The position numbers and the translations under genes were made by a program. Under the pieces are notes generated by a model, which saw only the letters and a program-made list of their open reading frames with translations, was not told where the DNA came from and searched no databases. 43,807 bases of DNA from an uncultured Flavobacteriales bacterium (lineage in GTDB: Bacteria; Bacteroidota; Bacteroidia; UBA10329). Position 1 is the stretch's first letter; every line of letters starts with the position of its first letter. Positions 1-34,607 of the stretch are shown here, in pieces. Location: assembly GCA_937900875.1 (NCBI GenBank), contig CALCGD010000149.1, forward strand, positions 1-43,807, written 5' to 3'.

Positions 1-8
1 CCAATATT

Positions 9-323
9 GGTTTTCCAAAAATGACTTTTAGTTTTGCTAGAATAATTTTCGGTTTTACGAATATGACACTTGGTATTTAAATTTTCATTTTACGTGTTTC
101 AAGGGAGCCATTTGGTATTCTGGGTGAAACCATCACAATAGCCAGAGCACTCCTCAGTAATGTAGGGTTGAGTGTAAGTATTACCTGTATGACCCACAGA
201 ATACTGGGAGCCTTCCTTAGTATTTGAGGGATAGTCCTTGGTTATCTATGTGCCACCCTCGGTAATCTCAGTGCGGCTCTCCGTATTGTCAGGCTAACCC
301 TTGGTATTTCAGGTGTAGTACCC
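9..323. repeat. Degenerate 21-bp tandem repeat array, 15 contiguous units
   Basis: A core resembling GGTATT recurs at exactly 21-bp steps. The G of each core falls at 10, 31, 52, 73, 94, 115, (136), 157, 178, 199, 220, 241, 262, 283 and 304. A looser consensus follows each core: an AGGTG-like stretch, then a CC(C/T)TT-like end. The unit at 136 is the weakest (ACAATA). A further core at 331 is shifted by 27 bp. The leftmost three units form a T-rich subfamily (GTTTT, then an A-rich stretch, then ATGAC). The array begins at or before the window edge. There are no spacers of constant length between conserved repeats, so it is not a CRISPR. I do not recognise the family. The period equals two helical turns and also seven codons. 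Confidence 0.8.
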
Positions 324-366
324 GAAAGCCGTATTGTGGCGTTGGGAATACCAAATATGGGTTTTG

Positions 367-391
367 TAGAGACGCGATGCTTCGCGTCTCC
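367..391. repeat. GAGACGC-type palindrome (REP-like) 1
   Basis: A perfect 9-bp inverted repeat lies at 369-377 and 382-390 (GAGACGCGA / TCGCGTCTC) around a TGCT loop, preceded by TA. It is one of a family of palindromes clustered around the adjacent REP-associated transposase gene and is probably that enzyme's substrate family. Confidence 0.85.
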
Positions 392-400
392 TTAACATTG

Positions 401-421
401 ATACGCCAGCATGGCGTCTCA
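401..421. repeat. GAGACGC-type palindrome (REP-like) 2, partly decayed
   Basis: A 6-bp stem, ACGCCA (403-408) and TGGCGT (412-417), surrounds a GCA loop. The left outer arm is degenerate (GAT instead of GAG) and the right arm GTCTC is intact. It lies 34 bp upstream of the transposase start, so together with palindrome 1 it may form a paired element. Confidence 0.7.
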
Positions 422-454
422 CGGTAGAAATCATATTTTTATTGGTGGAACGCC

Positions 455-1093
455 ATGACCGACAAATTCCGTAATAAATATCGTATTCCTCCTGCCCGCA
501 GACCTAGTTGGGATTACGCTTGGTCCGCCAATTATTTCATCACCATTTGCACCAAAGACAGGCACCATTTTTTCGGTAATGTTTTGAAGGGCGAAATGCA
601 ATTATCCGAAATAGGCCGAATCGTAGAATCAGAATGGTTGAAAACATCGGATATCCGTTCTGATATGAATATACATTTGGGAGCATTCGTTATTATGCCC
701 AATCATTTTCATGCTATTGTTACAATTGATGATAATGAATTTAATTCTGGTAGAGACGCCATGCTTGGCGTCTCAGTACCATCCGAAAACAGGATACCAG
801 AAGGAAGCGCTATTCCAGAAGGAGACACGAGGCCGCAAAGAGACGCCAAGCATGGCGTCTCTACGGATTTTAAAAATGCCTTTATTCCACAATCAAAAAA
901 CCTCTCATCAATTGTCCGTGGATTTAAATCTGCCGTTACGGTACAGGCACGATCTATGCGAGCAGATTTCGAATGGCAGACCAGATTTCACGACCATATT
1001 ATCCGTAATTCTAATTCGCATCAAATAATTGAATATTACATCCTGAACAACCCAATAAATTGGATGGAAGATGAATTGTTTTCGGTCACGTAG
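455..1093 (+). CDS. REP-associated tyrosine transposase (RAYT, Y1/IS200-like HUH nuclease)
   Basis: This 212-residue protein belongs to the Y1_Tnp family of single-strand DNA endonucleases that act on REP palindromes. The HUH motif is PNHFHAIV (H84 and H86). The C-terminal part has the FHDHIIRN stretch followed by IEYYILNNPINW (about 192-203), where a tyrosine is a candidate nucleophile, though I cannot assign it with certainty. Residues 99-137 are encoded by two complete GAGACGC palindromes and the DNA between them, in frame. Without them the protein would be about 173 residues, closer to my expectation for the family. The spacer encodes a small repeat (IPEGSA / IPEGDT). The TAG stop at 1091-1093 is the edge of the next palindrome. 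There is no second transposase or IS end, so this is probably a domesticated or in-trans REP mobiliser rather than a complete IS. The ATG start fits the usual N-terminus before the conserved YFITICTKDR segment. Confidence 0.9.
   Translation: MTDKFRNKYRIPPARRPSWDYAWSANYFITICTKDRHHFFGNVLKGEMQLSEIGRIVESEWLKTSDIRSDMNIHLGAFVIMPNHFHAIVTIDDNEFNSGRDAMLGVSVPSENRIPEGSAIPEGDTRPQRDAKHGVSTDFKNAFIPQSKNLSSIVRGFKSAVTVQARSMRADFEWQTRFHDHIIRNSNSHQIIEYYILNNPINWMEDELFSVT
753..774. repeat. REP-like palindrome 3, inside the transposase CDS
   Basis: A perfect 9-bp stem lies at 753-761 and 766-774 (GAGACGCCA / TGGCGTCTC) with loop TGCT. It lies wholly within the coding sequence and is translated as RDAMLGVS. Confidence 0.9.
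840..861. repeat. REP-like palindrome 4, inverted, inside the transposase CDS
   Basis: It has the same 9-bp stem as palindrome 3 (840-848 and 853-861), but the loop is AGCA, the reverse complement of TGCT. The element is therefore inverted relative to palindrome 3, giving a BIME-like pair with a 65-bp spacer. It is translated as RDAKHGVS. Confidence 0.9.
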
Positions 1094-1114
1094 AGACGCC
1101 ATGCTTTGCGTCTG
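1091..1114. repeat. REP-like palindrome 5, overlapping the transposase stop codon
   Basis: GAGACGCCA at 1093-1101, loop TGCT, and an imperfect right arm TTGCGTCT. The TA preceding the palindrome plus its first G forms the TAG stop of the transposase. Confidence 0.8.
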
Positions 1115-1126
1115 AATTCAATAAGG

Positions 1127-1180
1127 ATGCCAGCATGAAGAGACGCCAGCATGAAGAGACGCCAGCATGGCGACTCTACT
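1127..1180. repeat. 16-bp tandem repeat derived from a REP arm, ending in palindrome 6
   Basis: The unit ACGCCAGCATGAAGAG occurs at 1143-1158, with a near copy at 1127-1142 (first C is T). A third unit at 1159-1174 diverges into the closing arm TGGCGACTC. The final part, 1156-1176, is a complete but imperfect palindrome with one extra base in the right arm. Its edge supplies the stop codon of the minus-strand gene that ends at 1176. Confidence 0.75.
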
Positions 1181-1763
1181 TAGCTCGTTTCGAGCCAACT
1201 ATATATCCTATCCCTGTTCTAATAAGCCCCGTAGAGCGAACCTCCATGCGGGTTTCATTGTCGGAAAATTCGTTCCATTCTAAAACGGCACCAACGCTAA
1301 AATCTGTAAACCAGATAAACTTGTTTCCCATCTGAAAGTCGAAACCTATTCCAACCAAATTCTCTAGTATAAAACTGTAGGTAGGCGAGAGGCGTTTGTC
1401 GGCTACCTCGTCATAGATAATGGGGAGTCGTTTCTTGGTATTGTGGCTAGAGAATACATTATGGTACCCGAAGTAGAGGCTAAAGTTGTTCTTCCTTTGA
1501 TTTGGGTAAAACTTGTATCCCAAGTAGGTACCCAATATCCCAGGCCCATCTTTCCACACATCATAGAATTTAATTCCCAAGCCAGCATCAATCTTGTGCC
1601 CGCTGCGGTAAACGGAGAAAGTTGGGCCAAACCCAAGGCCACTAGATGAAGCAATGATGCCACCTTCTACCGCGTAGTAATTGGTGTAATGGTCAAAGCC
1701 TTCTTGTGCAAAAACACCAAGACCATTCATTACAAGCGCAGTTGCTATCAGCCAAACTTTCAT
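1176..1763 (-). CDS. Small outer-membrane beta-barrel protein, unknown function
   Basis: I do not recognise a specific family. The preferred start is MKVWLIATAL, which opens directly into a signal peptide ending near GVFAQ. Earlier in-frame Met codons at 1769 and 1805 would place 2 to 14 extra residues before it. The mature part alternates hydrophobic and polar residues with many Gly, Tyr and Phe (for example GLGFGPTFSVYRSGHK, GYKFYP, NNFSLYFGYH) and ends in GIGYIVGSKRAK, consistent with an 8- to 10-strand barrel. The TAG stop at 1176-1178 falls at the edge of a REP-type palindrome, so the original C-terminus may have been altered. It converges with the transposase gene. Confidence 0.75.
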   Translation of the reverse strand: MKVWLIATALVMNGLGVFAQEGFDHYTNYYAVEGGIIASSSGLGFGPTFSVYRSGHKIDAGLGIKFYDVWKDGPGILGTYLGYKFYPNQRKNNFSLYFGYHNVFSSHNTKKRLPIIYDEVADKRLSPTYSFILENLVGIGFDFQMGNKFIWFTDFSVGAVLEWNEFSDNETRMEVRSTGLIRTGIGYIVGSKRAK

Positions 1764-1805
1764 CCCCATACTTAGAAAAACACGGTTTTGATCGAAGGTT
1801 GCCAA

Positions 1806-1990
1806 TCAACATGTTTATGTGCAGTTCAGAATTTATCTGAACTTAAGTTTCACATTTTCAACTCAGCTGTTAATATGTACTTTGGAGGCAACCACTTGTA
1901 GAAATAGCGTTTTGTATTTTGTAGGTCAGATTGAACTTAAAATCAAAGCCTTCAATAAATGATATTTGTGCACCCGATTAATAGCGTACT
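1806..1990. other. Divergent intergenic region, promoter candidates only
   Basis: About 185 bp separate the minus-strand barrel from the plus-strand adhesin. GATATTTG at 1961-1968 is one mismatch from the Bacteroidota -7 element TAnnTTTG and lies 22 bp before the adhesin GTG. TTG occurs at 1931-1933, but the 27-bp spacing is long. No RNA gene or repeat was seen. Confidence 0.35.
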
Positions 1991-4309
1991 GTGATTAACC
2001 CTTCCTTTTCAAAAGTATCTTTCGTATTCTTCTTTCTAGCTACGTTTTTGCCTGTGTACGCATTTTCGCAATGCGCTCCGTTAACAACGCTATATGCAGA
2101 GAACAATGGGCAGGACGGAATTATGTTTGACATTACCGCGTTGGTGGACGTCACAATTACTGGTTTCGACCATAACATGGGGGAAACCATCACTCCTTAC
2201 AACATTGAGATTTACTATAAGGCAGGAACGCATGTTGGCTTTGAAGGAAATGCCGGAGCCTGGACTTTAGCTGGAACTGCAAACGGTATGGTAGGAAATG
2301 GAGTGGATGTACCAACTTCAATACCAATCGTGTTAGCTGTGGCTGTTCCTCAAGGGCAGACATACGCATTCTATATCACTGATACTGGAGGAGCTGCCAA
2401 TTTAGATTATACGAATGGCACCGCTGTTGGTGCGTTGTATTCGGATGATGGAAACATTCAAATATTTGAAGGAACTGGAAAGGATTACGCATTTGGAACG
2501 GATTACGCTCCGAGAATTCCGAACGCTACGGTTTATTACGATTGTTGTCCAGCTCCAGTTTTGGTTGAAGTTGACAATTCATGCTCTGGAATGGGTGATG
2601 GTTCTGTTGAAGCAACAGGCATGGGAACGGGGCCTTGGGTCTACGAAATTTCCAACATTGGAGGAGTATTAGAAACTAGTCCTTCTACAAACGGACCCTA
2701 CACTTTTACAGGTTTAATAGAAGGAATGTACACCGTAAATGCAACGGATGGAAGCGGTTGTAACGCTGTTGCAACTGCCGAACTTGAACCTGCATTACCA
2801 ATGACAATTGATGCTGTAATCACCGATAACCTTTGTTTTGGAGGTACGCTTGGAGTTGCAAACATCACTGTTAGCGGAGGAACTGCTCCGTTTGACGTGG
2901 CTTGGACAGACGCTTTTGCAAATGTGTTGCAAATCGACCCTCAGAATAATGGAAGTGCTACGCTAGATAGCCTTTCAGCGGGTAGTTACTTGGTTGGAGC
3001 ACAAGATGCCGCTGGATGTGGCCTTACAACATCGATTACAGTAACTGAACCTGCTACACCATTAGAGCTTTACTTAAGTCCTCAAAACCTAAACTGTTTT
3101 GAGAGCGCAGATGGAGAAGTAGGGGTTTCTCAAAGCGGAACGCCTCCATACTATTTTGAGATTGTTGATGTTTTTGGAAATCCTGTGCAAGCCACGGCCA
3201 ATCCAGCCGATTATGTTTTTCAAGGATTAGATGCAGGAATTTACTTTGTAACAGCAACGGATGATGAAGGATGCGCTGTAACAGATGATGTAGAGTTATT
3301 TGAGCCAGATCAAATTGAATTAGAGGTAGCATCTAGCCCAGTATTATGCTTCAATGGAAATGAAGGAACTGCTTCAATCACATCTATAAGCGGAGGAACA
3401 GGGCCTTTCGGTCAGACTGCTTGGAACGATCCAGCTTCTCAAACTGGAAATGCAGCAATTGATTTAATGCCAGGAACAATTACCGCCACGGTTGTTGACG
3501 CTAATGGTTGTTTGTTGGATGTCGAGTTCGAATTCGATAATCCTCCACCGTTAACTTTAAATCAGCGCTACTTAACCGATACATGTGGACAAGGAAAAGG
3601 GGCTGCAATTATTGATGTAGAGCTTGGAACACCACCATACGCATATATGTGGAAGCCAGATAGCGTGGATACAGGAGTTCATTACGACCTAGCAGCAGGT
3701 TCTTATGAAGTTGTAGTTACCGATGCCAACGGATGTAAAGACTCAACGTTTGTAGTAGTTTCTGATGATTTGCCTTATCCAACTTCTGATTTTGATTATA
3801 GAATTGAAGGAGAAACATTGCTAGATCAAGAAGTTCAATTCTTGAATAATTCAAATGGTACCTCTCAATGGACATGGTTCTTCGGCAATGGAGAATCTTC
3901 GAACGAGCGTGACCCAAGATTCCATTACGATAGAGCAGGGGATTATTTGGTTCAGTTATTATCCTCCAACGGATATTGTGTTGATACTACCTACAGATAT
4001 GTGAATATTGACCCCATGTTGTTGGTGTACGTTCCAAACTCCTTTACACCTGGAATGAATGGCATCAACGATTATTTCTTTCCACAAGGAGAAGGAATTG
4101 AGCTTGAGAGCTACGATATGTTTATCTATGACCGTTGGGGAAAAATGGTTTGGCAGACAGGCAATTACTCCAAAAAGTGGGATGGAACTAATATGTTCTC
4201 CCTAAAACAAGTTCCTGTAGGCACCTATGTTTACTTTATCAAGTTCAGAGAATATGCTGATTTGGATAGACACGAGTACAAAGGAGTAGTACACGTTATC
4301 AGAGATTAA
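1991..4309 (+). CDS. T9SS-exported SprB-repeat adhesin with PKD and type B sorting domain
   Basis: This 772-residue protein is predicted to reach the cell surface through the type IX secretion system. It starts at GTG with a signal peptide (hydrophobic VSFVFFFLATFLPVYAFS). An in-frame TAG lies 3 codons upstream and the next Met is near residue 45, so GTG is the only start that keeps the signal. Residues about 28-185 form an unassigned N-terminal domain ending in YYDCC. About 186-595 hold five SprB-like repeats, each with a GGTxPF-type core and an AGxYxVxxTDxxGC ending. About 600-672 is a PKD domain (WTWFFGNGE). About 675-772 is the gliding-motility-associated C-terminal domain (VPNSFTPGMNGINDYF, YDRWGKMVWQT, GTYVYFI). 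The last 759 bp match the next gene, with 506 bp identical, suggesting recent gene conversion. Confidence 0.92.
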   Translation: MINPSFSKVSFVFFFLATFLPVYAFSQCAPLTTLYAENNGQDGIMFDITALVDVTITGFDHNMGETITPYNIEIYYKAGTHVGFEGNAGAWTLAGTANGMVGNGVDVPTSIPIVLAVAVPQGQTYAFYITDTGGAANLDYTNGTAVGALYSDDGNIQIFEGTGKDYAFGTDYAPRIPNATVYYDCCPAPVLVEVDNSCSGMGDGSVEATGMGTGPWVYEISNIGGVLETSPSTNGPYTFTGLIEGMYTVNATDGSGCNAVATAELEPALPMTIDAVITDNLCFGGTLGVANITVSGGTAPFDVAWTDAFANVLQIDPQNNGSATLDSLSAGSYLVGAQDAAGCGLTTSITVTEPATPLELYLSPQNLNCFESADGEVGVSQSGTPPYYFEIVDVFGNPVQATANPADYVFQGLDAGIYFVTATDDEGCAVTDDVELFEPDQIELEVASSPVLCFNGNEGTASITSISGGTGPFGQTAWNDPASQTGNAAIDLMPGTITATVVDANGCLLDVEFEFDNPPPLTLNQRYLTDTCGQGKGAAIIDVELGTPPYAYMWKPDSVDTGVHYDLAAGSYEVVVTDANGCKDSTFVVVSDDLPYPTSDFDYRIEGETLLDQEVQFLNNSNGTSQWTWFFGNGESSNERDPRFHYDRAGDYLVQLLSSNGYCVDTTYRYVNIDPMLLVYVPNSFTPGMNGINDYFFPQGEGIELESYDMFIYDRWGKMVWQTGNYSKKWDGTNMFSLKQVPVGTYVYFIKFREYADLDRHEYKGVVHVIRD
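3551..4309 (+). repeat. Direct repeat copy 1 (shared adhesin 3' end)
   Basis: It aligns without gaps to 6953-7711 (offset 3402). Positions 3734-4239 show no differences from 7136-7641. Differences cluster on the left (up to 3730 and 3733) and at the extreme right (from 4240). Confidence 0.93.
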
Positions 4310-4411
4310 CTCAATGAGCAACTGAAAAGTAGACCAAGCGTCTTGATGTTGAAAAATTGAAGCGGTAATACAAGGTTATTAAGTTTCGATTATCGTAATT
4401 CATGCTCGCAA

Positions 4412-7400
4412 ATGAAAACTCCTATTTTCTTGCCTTCATCTTTTTCTGAGCTTATTAGCAAGACTTCTGTTTTGTTCATTTTATTGAATTGCTTGTTTTT
4501 GACGGTTTCAGCCCAGTCTCCAACATGCGATATTCCTGGAATCATGGCTGCTTTTCAAGGAGCAGGATATGTTCCATTGAATGTCCAAGGTCAACCATGC
4601 AGCTTATATTTCGTTAATCCCAACTCTCAGCAAGCAGGCCAAGCACAAGCCGCAGCGGCTACACTTGGAGCAAATTTGGTGGTAATGAACGATGCTGCAG
4701 AAAATGCAAATGTTTCTGCGGCTATTGATGCGAGTGTATATAACGGAGCTACCATTTGGATAGGTTACCAACGTTCTGGTGCTGGTGCAACTACATTTTA
4801 TGCTAGCGATGGTACCACGGGGCCTTTTGTTCCTTCCAACGGTAATCCGAATATTTTTCAGAATTGGGCGGGGGGAGAACCGAACAATAGCGGATATGGG
4901 AACACTGGAATATTTGGTTCATGCGATTCTGATTGTCAGAATGGTGAGCAATGTGTTCAAATTTATCCTGGCGGCCTATGGAACGACCTCAATTGTGACG
5001 ATAACAGTATTTCGGTCATCGAGGTGAACCTGTGTCCCGAGATAACTGTGGTAGCGAGTAACAATAATGTGTGCGCAGGTATCCCAGTCACACTTACAGC
5101 TTCCACATTGCTAGGGTCCGTTCCTTATCAATATGCTTGGTCCACAAACGAAGTAACAGCTGCCATTACGGTAACTCCACCTCAAACAACCATTTACGAT
5201 GTTGCTGTTGTAGATAGGTACTCTTGCAGTGCTCAAGAATCTGTTACGGTAGATATACTTACAGGCGCTACTGCAACATTTGATGTTGGCTCAGCGGTTT
5301 GTATTGGTGCACCTGCAACAATCACGTATAGTGGAAACGGAACACCCGCAGCAACTTATGCATGGAATTTCGGAACTGGAATAGTTGTCAGTGGCAGTGG
5401 TCAAGGACCATATCAGGTCGCATGGGCAACATCTGGGGCTCAAACAGTTACGCTTCAAGTTACAGAAAACGGCTGCCCATCGCCTGTAGAAACGCAGAAT
5501 GTCACAGTTTCACCTTCTCCAATTCCCGATTTTACATTTACCACTGTATGTGAGGGGAATACAACAGATTTTACGAACACATCTAGTGGTAATGGCGGTG
5601 TTCTTGTTGGTAGTGCTTGGGTGCCGATGCCAGGTGATACAATTATTTCTACTGATGCATCATACATCTTTCCTTCAGCCGGAACCTTTCCTGTTTCCCT
5701 TGGGGTTCTAACCGCTGATGGTTGTGCTGCACAGACCACACTTCAGGTAACGGTTAATCCAGGTCCAACAGCTGTTTTTAGTTCTACAGATGTCATTTGT
5801 AATGCCGCTTGTGATGGAACAGCTGATGTAGTCGTTCAAGGTGGAGCGGCACCGATAACAATTACTTGGAGCAATGGCGCCATTGGCAATGGCATCACAA
5901 ACTTATGCCCTGGACCTTATTCCGGTACCGTTTCAGATGCCAATGGTTGCGAGGTGACAGGTCAGATTGATATTACCGAGCCGACCGTATTGGCAGTTTT
6001 GGTTAATGTAACAGAAACATCTTGCCCAGGTTTGGGTGATGGAGTTGCTGTGGATGTTCCATCTGGTGGAACTCCGCCCTACACGATTGATTGGGCTGGG
6101 GAGGACCCGAATGCACTTCTAGCGGGAGACTATTTAGTGACAGTGACAGATGCGAATGGATGTACGGTTGCCGCACCTTTTACCATTGCTGATGGTGCTG
6201 GTCTGAGTATGGATTTTGTAATTACGGATAATATATGCTTTGGCGGAAGTGATGGGGCTGCTGCACTTACTGTTTCGAATGGAGTTTCTCCATATGATAT
6301 CGTTTGGACTGACGCATTTCAAACTCCTGTGCAGATAAATCAGGCAAGTCAGGGAGTAGAAACGCTTACTGGTCTTGTAACGGGTACGTATAATGTTGCC
6401 ACCCAAGATGCTACTGGGTGTGCGGCCGCAACAACAATTACAATTACGCAGCCTGCACAACCACTAGTAATGACGCTAGTACCGCAAGATTTGAATTGCT
6501 TTGAAAACAGCGATGGTGAAATAGCAGCTTCTCAAAGTGGACTTTCGCCTTATGAATATTTTCTTTCGGACGTTTTTGGAGTTCCATTAGCGTCTGGGGC
6601 AAATGCTGGTCTTTACACATTTCAAGGATTGAGTACTGGAATTTACTTTGTCGATGTAATTGATGCCAATGGCTGCATTACCACTGACGCGGTTGAGTTG
6701 TTCCAACCTGAACCTTTGAATGCAGAATCAACAGTTACACCTATTTCATGTTATCTAGGGGCTGATGGTGCAATAACCATTACTCAGATAACGGGAGGTA
6801 CCACTCCCTACGCTCCAGTTATTTGGGATGATTCGAATGCACAAACTGGAAATACGGCAACAAGTCTTTCACAAGGAACGATTACAGCTACAATTACGGA
6901 TGCTAACGGTTGTGGGCTTTTAGAAACGTTCATACTAACCGAGCCTCCATCGTTAACCTTAAATCAGCGTTATTTAACTGATACGTGTGGACAAGGAAAA
7001 GGGGCTGCAATTATTGATGTAGAGCTAGGAACACCACCATACGCATATATGTGGAAGCCAGATGGCGTGGATACAGGAGTTCATTACGGCTTAGCAGCAG
7101 GTTCGTATGAAGTTGTAGTTACCGATGCCAATGGGTGTAAAGACTCAACGTTTGTAGTAGTTTCTGATGATTTGCCTTATCCAACTTCTGATTTTGATTA
7201 TAGAATTGAAGGAGAAACATTGCTAGATCAAGAAGTTCAATTCTTGAATAATTCAAATGGTACCTCTCAATGGACATGGTTCTTCGGCAATGGAGAATCT
7301 TCGAACGAGCGTGACCCAAGATTCCATTACGATAGAGCAGGGGATTATTTGGTTCAGTTATTATCCTCCAACGGATATTGTGTTGATACTACCTACAGAT

Positions 7401-33584: not shown

Positions 33585-34607
33585 ATGATTTTAACCGCAA
33601 GTGTTATTGCCGAATTAATTGGTGGCAGCGTTGATGGAGACCCAATGGTACAAGTAAGTACTGTAAGTCCTATTGAGAGCGGTTCAGCCGGATCATTGTC
33701 GTTTCTTGCAAATCCTAAATACGTGGAATTCCTTCATACAACCGAAGCTTCTATTGTTATTGTTAAAAACGATTTTGAAGCTGAAAAAGAGGTTAAGCCA
33801 ACTTTAATCCGTGTTTCAGATCCTTATTCTTGTTTTGCAATTCTATTGCAGAAATACGATGAAATGAATCGGCCTAAGGCAGGCATTCACTCTTCTGCAA
33901 TAATTTCTGACTCTGCCAAGATTGGTTCGAATGTCTCTATAGCAGCCGGTGTAGTTATTGAAGATGATGTTGAAGTTGGCGACAACACCATACTTGGCGC
34001 ACAGGTTGTGCTTGAACGAAAAGTAAAGGTTGGCTCAAACTGCAAGCTGCATTCGGGTTCTAGAGTTTTACATGATTGTAAACTAGGTAACGACTGCACG
34101 CTACATGCTGGTGTAACCATTGGAAGTGATGGTTTTGGTTTTGCACCATCCGATATGGAATACAGCAAGGTGCCGCAGGTTGGCAACGTGATAATTGAAG
34201 ATAAAGTTGAGATTGGTTCTAATACAACCATTGACAGAGCCACCATGGGCTCTACTATCATTAGAACAGGCGTAAAACTGGATAATCTTATTCAGATAGC
34301 GCACAACGTAGAAATTGGTGAGCACACCGTGATTGCTGCTCAAACTGGCATTGCGGGTTCAACCAAAATTGGAAAAAGGTGTATGATAGGAGGGCAGGTT
34401 GGCATTATTGGTCATCTAACGATAGGAGATAACGTTAAAATTGCTGCGCAAAGCGGAGTTGGAAGTAACCTAGCCCCAAATTCAATAGTACAGGGTTCAC
34501 CAGCTTTTGAAGTTGGGTCTTATCGTAGGTCTTATGTATCATTCAGAAGGCTTCCTGACATCATTAGAAACATAGAACAACAGTTAAGAGATTTGAATAA
34601 GGGATGA
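33585..34607 (+). CDS. lpxD: UDP-3-O-acylglucosamine N-acyltransferase (LpxD)
   Basis: This 340-residue enzyme of lipid A synthesis adds the second hydroxyacyl chain (N-linked) from acyl-ACP in the cytoplasm. An N-terminal uridine-binding domain (about 1-95) has SPIESGSAGSLSFLANPKY. A left-handed beta-helix of hexapeptide repeats (about 98-310) has the catalytic His region IQIAHNVEIGEHTVIAAQ and SDGFGFAPSD. A C-terminal helix (RRLPDIIRNIEQQLRDL) follows. It overlaps the lpxC-fabZ start by 4 bp (ATGA). It is first in a four-gene row. Confidence 0.96.
   Translation: MILTASVIAELIGGSVDGDPMVQVSTVSPIESGSAGSLSFLANPKYVEFLHTTEASIVIVKNDFEAEKEVKPTLIRVSDPYSCFAILLQKYDEMNRPKAGIHSSAIISDSAKIGSNVSIAAGVVIEDDVEVGDNTILGAQVVLERKVKVGSNCKLHSGSRVLHDCKLGNDCTLHAGVTIGSDGFGFAPSDMEYSKVPQVGNVIIEDKVEIGSNTTIDRATMGSTIIRTGVKLDNLIQIAHNVEIGEHTVIAAQTGIAGSTKIGKRCMIGGQVGIIGHLTIGDNVKIAAQSGVGSNLAPNSIVQGSPAFEVGSYRRSYVSFRRLPDIIRNIEQQLRDLNKG

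Follow-up and report, generated by a model that had tools for sequence, protein, structure and literature searches.

The window (the whole 43,807-nucleotide stretch of DNA analysed here) opens with a noncoding array of near-palindromic 21-bp units. We read this array, with a probability of roughly 40%, as a satellite-like chain in which at least 17 near-palindromes of 21 bp abut; these would be putative dimer-type binding sites lying on one face of the helix. Its interest within bacterial minisatellites is the fixed two-turn pitch, which is common to arrays that are unrelated in sequence.

The 21-bp Array at the Start of the Window

The array lies at the edge of contig C149, in a draft genome of Bacteroidota that consists of 355 contigs. 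The left end lies outside the data, since the array already occupies base 1 of the contig. The original prediction had set fifteen cores at positions 10 + 21k, up to 304, within an array extending from 1 to 345. The sequence as reread was consistent with these cores and with the grid; however, the grid was found to continue to position 357 (Table 1).

Table 1. Features at the left end of the window
Feature	Position	Strand	Remarks
Noncoding array, 17 near-palindromic 21-bp units on a single grid	1–357		Left side cut by the contig edge
First five units, forming the AT-rich left portion of the array	1–105		62–76% A+T
Unit whose core is swapped from GGTATT to ACAATAG	127–147		Opposite orientation, same grid
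Unit with swapped core AGAATACT	190–210		
Typical unit TAACCCTTGGTATTTCAGGTG	295–315	+	Half-sites: left ACCCTTGGTA, right (reverse complement) ACACCTGAAA
Even dyad centre of the typical unit at 295–315	Between 306 and 307		
Final on-grid unit, swapped core GGAATACC	337–357		
REP-like hairpin GTAGAGACGCGATGCTTCGCGTCTC	366–390		Follows the array directly; regarded as a neighbour and not a part of it
RAYT-like IS200/Y1 transposase	455–1093	+	Y1_Tnp E = 2.7e-4, 21.5 bits (Pfam cut-off 23); neighbour and not a part of the array

The lag-21 autocorrelation of positions 1–345 was 0.454, compared to 0.260 (sd 0.024) in 1000 dinucleotide shuffles, and lags 42, 63 and 84 were as high as lag 21. No shuffle matched the lag-21 value, even when the best period between 5 and 60 was left free for each of them; the comparison with shuffled sequence that the prediction had proposed was therefore decided in favour of the array. 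The column score in the 21-bp register gave z = 19 against dinucleotide shuffles. Tandem Repeats Finder did not report the array, as the units are too diverged, and the periodicity was demonstrated by autocorrelation instead. The 21-bp array in the window is real, and the original observation is confirmed and extended.

The claim that the grid persists despite base divergence was borne out. The 17 units differed from their own consensus at 160 positions (45%), and the register was strict, with none of the 17 units shifted, a count that is biased low since array ends were set where the phase was lost. In two arrays of a genome of the same genus (G004), 158 (L035) and 182 (L036 5209–5544) mismatches were likewise accompanied by no shifts. 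Shifted units were present in other arrays, for example those of L037, L044, L071, L111 and L187, and this was counted against a binding chain. A length of 21 bp corresponds to two turns of B-DNA.

Arrays at or near contig ends were observed at position 1 of the window, at L071 1–378, at the ends of L037 and L042, and at the start of L038. Arrays in such positions probably break short-read assemblies, and the class may be under-represented in them.

Unit Structure and Dyad Symmetry

For the analysis of dyad symmetry, bases i and j were paired wherever i + j was fixed modulo 21. The complementarity of the window array reached 0.395 at one phase; the other phases did not exceed 0.299, and control periods did not exceed 0.282. 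The dyad score had p = 0.00085 in 20000 random permutations of the 21 columns. A directional motif with a GGTATT core, as initially proposed, did not by itself describe the unit. The unit is a near-palindrome comprised of two inverted half-sites, approximately RCMCYYRGWA, which alternate in both orientations. Its centre lies between columns 12 and 13, and its symmetrised consensus approximates a 20-bp palindrome plus one base. The units of the window face both directions on one grid, a feature that the first reading had not noted.

Dyad tests of the motif-independent noncoding arrays with a period of 21 or 42 bp, leaving out one of two overlapping rows for L037, identified 10 of 19 as dyadic at p < 0.05 and five at p < 0.01. 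Nine of the 19 were non-dyadic at p < 0.05, and in nine the mirror (uncomplemented) score exceeded the dyad score; both counts weigh against a binding chain.

Across 25 dyadic arrays, the direct similarity between units dropped with distance, from 0.59 to 0.49, whereas the inverse similarity was nearly flat (0.487 to 0.446). The dyad is thus a property of the common consensus and not of local inverted copying. As pairing within a unit was hardly higher than pairing between distant units, hairpin-by-hairpin compensation is not the source of the symmetry; covariation at the level of hairpins was looked for in the arrays and was absent. The near-flat inverse similarity also speaks against a functionless (selfish) satellite, in which the two-turn pitch would come from the copying process and not from selection, a close rival that we regard as only slightly less probable than the binding chain. 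However, flat inverse similarity would also be expected in the absence of selection if the founder unit was palindromic.

A heptad substructure within the unit was considered, as lags 7 and 14 were high at first; it was rejected, with lag 7 having a mean rank of 5.4 out of 10 across 29 arrays. An A+T pattern common to the 25 dyadic arrays was looked for about the dyad. Two places were GC-rich, namely the odd centre (−0.229, se 0.066) and the fourth base off the even centre (−0.195, se 0.063); this pattern was not relied upon because several of the 25 had been picked by the TTGGTATT motif.

Sequence Relatives of the Window Array

With the spaced-core pattern, the family was also detected twice in G004, once on contig C28 and once on contig C3; after refinement, these arrays span L035 5083–5523 and L036 5209–5544. 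In G008, two contigs carried degenerate relatives close to their ends, with two or three mismatches to the motif. The units of the window and of G004 were used to build a sequence model of 63 positions, which gave five matches in the window, 10 in the two G004 loci and one weak match in G005 (E = 6.3e-4) across nine same-genus genomes. A further 60 genomes of the phylum, searched under stricter filters, gave no match. The profile search of Bacteroidota that had been suggested thus placed the sequence family in this genus only, within the genomes searched.

The first 90 bases of the window were most alike to L035 on contig C28 of G004 (77% over 77 bp, E = 1.7e-7), and by this alignment the two appear clearly homologous. 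The order of units was common to both G004 family arrays (0 of 1000 shuffles reached the observed value), and the order in the window was not significantly related to either (p = 0.196 for L035 and p = 0.324 for L036). L035 had undergone a recent block expansion, which favours the satellite. There was no match to the window array or the L187 array in a plasmid collection, and no match to the L035 array in a phage collection. Two viral contigs carried the motif, in both cases inside long open frames.

One Pitch in Unrelated Sequences

The period was assessed with a motif-free scan that sought degenerate arrays with periods anywhere between 5 and 80. Only the two motif-free scans (1.456 Mb and 400 kb) bear on the period, as the pattern search and the collection scan impose a 21-bp spacing and the arrays found by them are uninformative in this respect. 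The first scan covered 1.456 Mb, mostly of contig starts, out of 100 fetched stretches from which those masked as N were dropped. It identified 33 noncoding arrays, of which 17 had a period above 12 bp: 21 bp in 11, 42 bp in three, 22 bp in two and 49 bp in one (14 of 17 at 21 or 42 bp). In the second scan, of 400 kb of G004 contig interiors, five of six noncoding arrays had a period of 21 or 42/21; the tallies exclude the window and its arrays, which were scanned alongside, and the period-15 array among the six (L228) resembles the end of a coding region. Over both scans (1.86 Mb of Bacteroidota DNA), 19 of 23 noncoding arrays above 12 bp had a period of 21 or 42.

The detector recovered implanted arrays of 13 to 45 bp with the right period and at broadly similar rates. 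Coding arrays in the same data had mostly other multiples of three as their period (9, 6 and 51). In 300 kb of proteobacterial control DNA, there was no truly noncoding array; the single flag was the annotated gene gfcA of E. coli, mislabelled since the noncoding label was derived from open reading frames and not from annotation. Short-period noncoding arrays in the first scan were mostly of 7 bp (9/33; among those observed, L108, L118, L137, L141, L149 and L152) and 8 bp (5/33; L045, L099, L100, L101 and L128).

The units of different arrays were mostly unrelated in sequence, and the occurrence of unrelated sequences with one pitch within a single genome favours the satellite. Likeness between arrays was slightly higher within than between genomes, with the observed mean reached by 79 of 2000 label shuffles. 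Related sets within a genome included L035 with L036 5209; L036 2143 with L036 2500 and L071; and L043 with L152. The likeness was weak overall, which argues against one sequence-reading protein.

Several further features are consistent with a satellite. Higher-order repeats of 42 and 63 bp were present in L036, L077 and L239. In Umea1_bin-1585 (L187, L192 and L212), three half-site types in both orientations combine freely on the grid, the two orientations and their free combination being counted for the satellite at L192 and L212. The density of arrays was unequal between sister genomes: G004 contained 11 arrays of period 21/42 in 800 kb, besides four in motif-chosen loci, and G005 contained no period-21 array in 100 kb, which was counted against a binding chain. 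Against the satellite, two-copy duplications in noncoding DNA outside the arrays were rare and without a 21-bp bias (six in 206 kb, one of them at 21 bp; 0 of 7 at 21 bp in a stricter first pass), and the arrays are thus unlike the tail of ordinary duplication or slippage.

The L187 array is long, at 53 units, and AAAAACATATGTTTTT palindromes were observed at L187 3205–3225 and 3373–3393, between sub-arrays where GGTATT units flip orientation. Planctomycetaceae MAGs (L191, L215 and L217) had near-perfect palindromes as units, such as TTGGTATTTACCAA. Dyad symmetry was well displayed in both of these groups of MAGs. As the Umea1_bin-1585 and Planctomycetaceae loci were chosen by motif, the period of the motif-bearing array is not evidence in either; extra arrays within the same 8-kb stretches of Umea1_bin-1585 likewise had a period of 21. 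Among other observations, a well conserved noncoding array with a period of 41 bp, composed of two palindromes (L159 967–1596, G007:C155), has GAGACG REP hairpins at its side, and a relative of the Fib_succ_major/PKD gene of L036 lies downstream of it.

The pitch had originally been compared to that of iterons, and an iteron array or centromere-like partition site was considered. The sites are phased, directly repeated and partly dyadic, as would be expected of such elements; however, the 11 arrays in 800 kb of G004 have mostly different units, none of the annotated neighbours was named as a replication or partition gene, and the window array was without a plasmid match. Iterons or partition sites characteristically lie at a single or few loci with rep/par genes adjacent, which was not what was observed. 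With arrays so frequent and mostly unrelated in sequence, an iteron or segregation site in the strict sense is most improbable.

Coding and RNA Analysis

The window array is noncoding. All six reading frames were interrupted, and neither the scarcity of stops (p = 0.54) nor the three-phase codon test (p = 0.17) was significant. In the three-phase test, 3 of 54 noncoding-class arrays and two of five coding-class arrays had p < 0.05; for stop scarcity, the numbers were none and one, respectively. A decayed coding repeat with repeats of seven residues would be consistent with a 21-bp unit of seven codons, with the presence of only two stops each in frames +3 and −3 of the window array, and with the 21-bp coding arrays known elsewhere (the L246 and L247 controls, and viral L221 and L222). 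The broken frames, the two test results and the low number of noncoding arrays below 0.05 argue against it, and on-grid swaps of orientation would destroy a reading frame. We consider this origin extremely improbable; neither the open frame nor the codon-position bias of a heptapeptide repeat was found, and the array did not match a coding repeat when the earlier suggestion of such a check was followed. Elsewhere in the window, an ORF at 33585–34607 contains an 18-bp periodic stretch (approximately 33811–34524) of six-residue repeats.

A transcribed array of RNA hairpins, acting as a regulatory RNA, transcript stabiliser or bidirectional terminator, is quite unlikely. The dyad units are capable of hairpin formation, and one of the three arrays folded, L036 2125–2418, gave an unusually good long-hairpin fold that surpassed its shuffles by a wide margin (z −6.1). 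For L036 5214–5570 (z −1.57) and the window array (z −1.8), the gain over shuffles was small. DNA parameters were used for all three. Pairing inside the unit (0.487) was close to that between distant units (approximately 0.45), and an exact 21-bp register is not demanded by hairpins alone. There was no Rfam match at gathering score in positions 1–5000 of the window, and none at E ≤ 0.1 in the arrays of L035, L036, L159, L037 and L109. Of 23 arrays of decided context, only three were located between convergent genes. Neither a family match nor a stable local fold was thus found, apart from the single sister array that folds strongly. In the same locus, L036 7741–7809 is a DUF805 cis-regulatory RNA (RF03081, 74.3 bits).

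Among 16 arrays, none contained an exact promoter motif of the Bacteroidota type. When each element was allowed one mismatch, L036 2500 and L071 were the only arrays to exceed all 100 shuffles. Promoter activity is carried by BrickBuilt elements (PMC4596501) and was counted in favour of a transcribed array.

Genomic Context and the Neighbouring REP Element

The gene context of 29 arrays was tandem in 11, divergent in nine, convergent in three and undecided in six. There was no fixed context, which was counted against a binding chain. Neighbours with Pfam matches included secreted or surface proteins (Por_Secre_tail, CarboxypepD_reg, PKD and Fib_succ_major), and many neighbours had no match. 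In the window, positions 1991–4309 encode a secreted protein with SprB repeats, a PKD domain and a CHU_C type IX secretion signal. Orthologues of the window gene at 1176–1805 in G004, G008, G002 and G005 had no array within the fetched flank of at most 1.5 kb, which favours the satellite and was counted against a binding chain. Two G004 gene probes led to a large paralogous family and to a gene confined to G004.

REP hairpins of the GTAGAGACGC type bracket and pierce the RAYT-like gene between 366 and 1180, and those at 750 and 840, within the gene, form an exact inverted pair. These REPs look like a neighbouring insertion. Relatives of the RAYT-like gene were present in G008, G005 and G006, and there was no RAYT of the window type in array-rich G004 at E ≤ 0.001. 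The array had been suggested to be linked to the RAYT/REP element that follows it. This was not supported: G004 has two arrays of the same family, and many other 21-bp arrays, without such a RAYT, which is therefore not needed for arrays, and the RAYT/REP element at the window array is probably a bystander.

The array might alternatively be a part of that element, or the interior of a MITE as in BrickBuilt. The REP hairpin at 366 directly adjoins the array, the 41-bp palindromic array of L159 in G007 also lies beside REP hairpins, and an element of 157 bp flanks two G004 arrays in opposite orientations. However, the window and L159 were the only cases with REP hairpins beside the array among the arrays scanned, and units were mostly unshared between loci. 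The flanks of 16 arrays (15 from G004 and that of the window; 31 sequences) were mostly unlike each other, with one strong match between loci (L035/L080), one weak match (L071/L075) and the others inside L036. Arrays were thus not confined to places with a RAYT or REPs, and we regard this alternative as very unlikely.

The 157-bp intergenic element (L035 5586–5742 and L080 2311–2467; 80% identical, E = 1.8e-37) lies to the right of the array in L035 and to the left in L080, and its L035 copy contains the inverted pair ATGATAAATT...AATTTATCAT. A repeat of approximately 65–75 bp (TTCTTAGCC...) was also observed between genes and arrays at L036 1468–1541, 2024–2090 and 2412–2477.

Discussion

If the window array is a binding chain, each unit would consist of two inverted half-sites of approximately 10.5 bp for a putative dimeric DNA-binding protein, and at least 17 dimers would sit side by side on a single helix face. 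Selection would keep the pitch of two B-DNA turns and the dyad while letting the letters drift, and the chain would grow by whole units or unit pairs, comparable to the 42- and 63-bp higher-order repeats of the sister arrays. Its candidate purposes are compaction, bridging, the buffering of a regulator and insulation between neighbouring genes. The window array has dyad sites at a helical-turn pitch, as would be expected of an operator chain. The multi-site binding array put forward originally remains the leading, though unproven, reading: both the strict two-turn pitch and the dyad of the grid fit dimer sites. No candidate binding protein for the arrays was found, and one sequence-reading protein would be inadequate to explain unrelated units. 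Approximately half of the motif-independent arrays are non-dyadic.

In a satellite, hairpin-prone 21-bp units would multiply through slippage, template switching and in-register unequal exchange, with the pitch set by DNA geometry or by an enzyme with a two-turn ruler. To our knowledge, no process proceeds in 21-bp steps, which was counted against the satellite, as was the register kept in old, diverged arrays. Our slight preference is for the binding chain, since the register has been retained despite divergence of the sequence; the gap between the two readings is small.

We found no 21-bp array class of this kind in the literature searched, which was mostly titles and abstract openings, with few subscription journals. 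Heptanucleotide repeats, such as the STRR of cyanobacteria and the TAACTGA repeats that reportedly occur between genes of Beggiatoaceae, are likewise noncoding phased arrays; however, their period is 7, and the 21-bp arrays are without 7-bp substructure. ARG boxes are operator chains with palindromic sites approximately two turns apart on one face. They comprise approximately two sites for a known regulator, whereas the arrays described here have 10–50 units.

The closest published kind found is the 23-nt BrickBuilt minisatellite of Porphyromonas. BrickBuilt of Porphyromonas gingivalis is a minisatellite-MITE with a 23-nt unit, a conserved leader and tail, and terminal repeats of the IS5 type; tandem repeats of 22 and 41 nt are also mentioned for this species (PMC4596501). 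By the same account, the likeness lies in a spacer-free, intergenic, short-unit tandem array of Bacteroidota at many loci per genome, and BrickBuilt elements differ in length between strains and have predicted stem loops (PMC4596501). The arrays described here are also intergenic and spacer-free. The 23-nt unit of BrickBuilt, as described there, is common to its loci, whereas the units on the 21-bp pitch differ between loci, with three matching pairs among 16 arrays (blastn E ≤ 1e-3). The leader and tail are conserved in that description, whereas most flanks here are unshared, and neither conserved flanks nor terminal inverted repeats were found in the 31 flanks, the left flank of the window array being off the contig.

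REPs are dispersed hairpins with a tag and not phased tandem arrays (PMC3733652). REP/REPIN and RAYT systems resemble the arrays, in that account, in having short intergenic palindromes, and one such element adjoins the window array; they differ in that 21-bp arrays occur without a RAYT of the window type. TIGR arrays are reportedly short prokaryotic tandem arrays with a Tas protein and guide RNAs (PMC12045711), whereas there was no such gene among the neighbours here, as compared by name alone.

A tentative wider reading is that of a widespread, undescribed bacterial satellite class, which would be intergenic and free in its letters, with a pitch of two helical turns and many palindromic units, in Bacteroidota and in the motif-selected Planctomycetaceae and Nostoc. 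If this is true, each genome would have dozens of intergenic regions shaped by a coat that binds DNA or by an enzyme carrying a 21-bp ruler. The usual view of noncoding tandem arrays in bacteria is that they are chance products of slippage, of any period. One pitch across unrelated sequences would point to a ruler, either physical or enzymatic, to which intergenic DNA in bacteria is subject.
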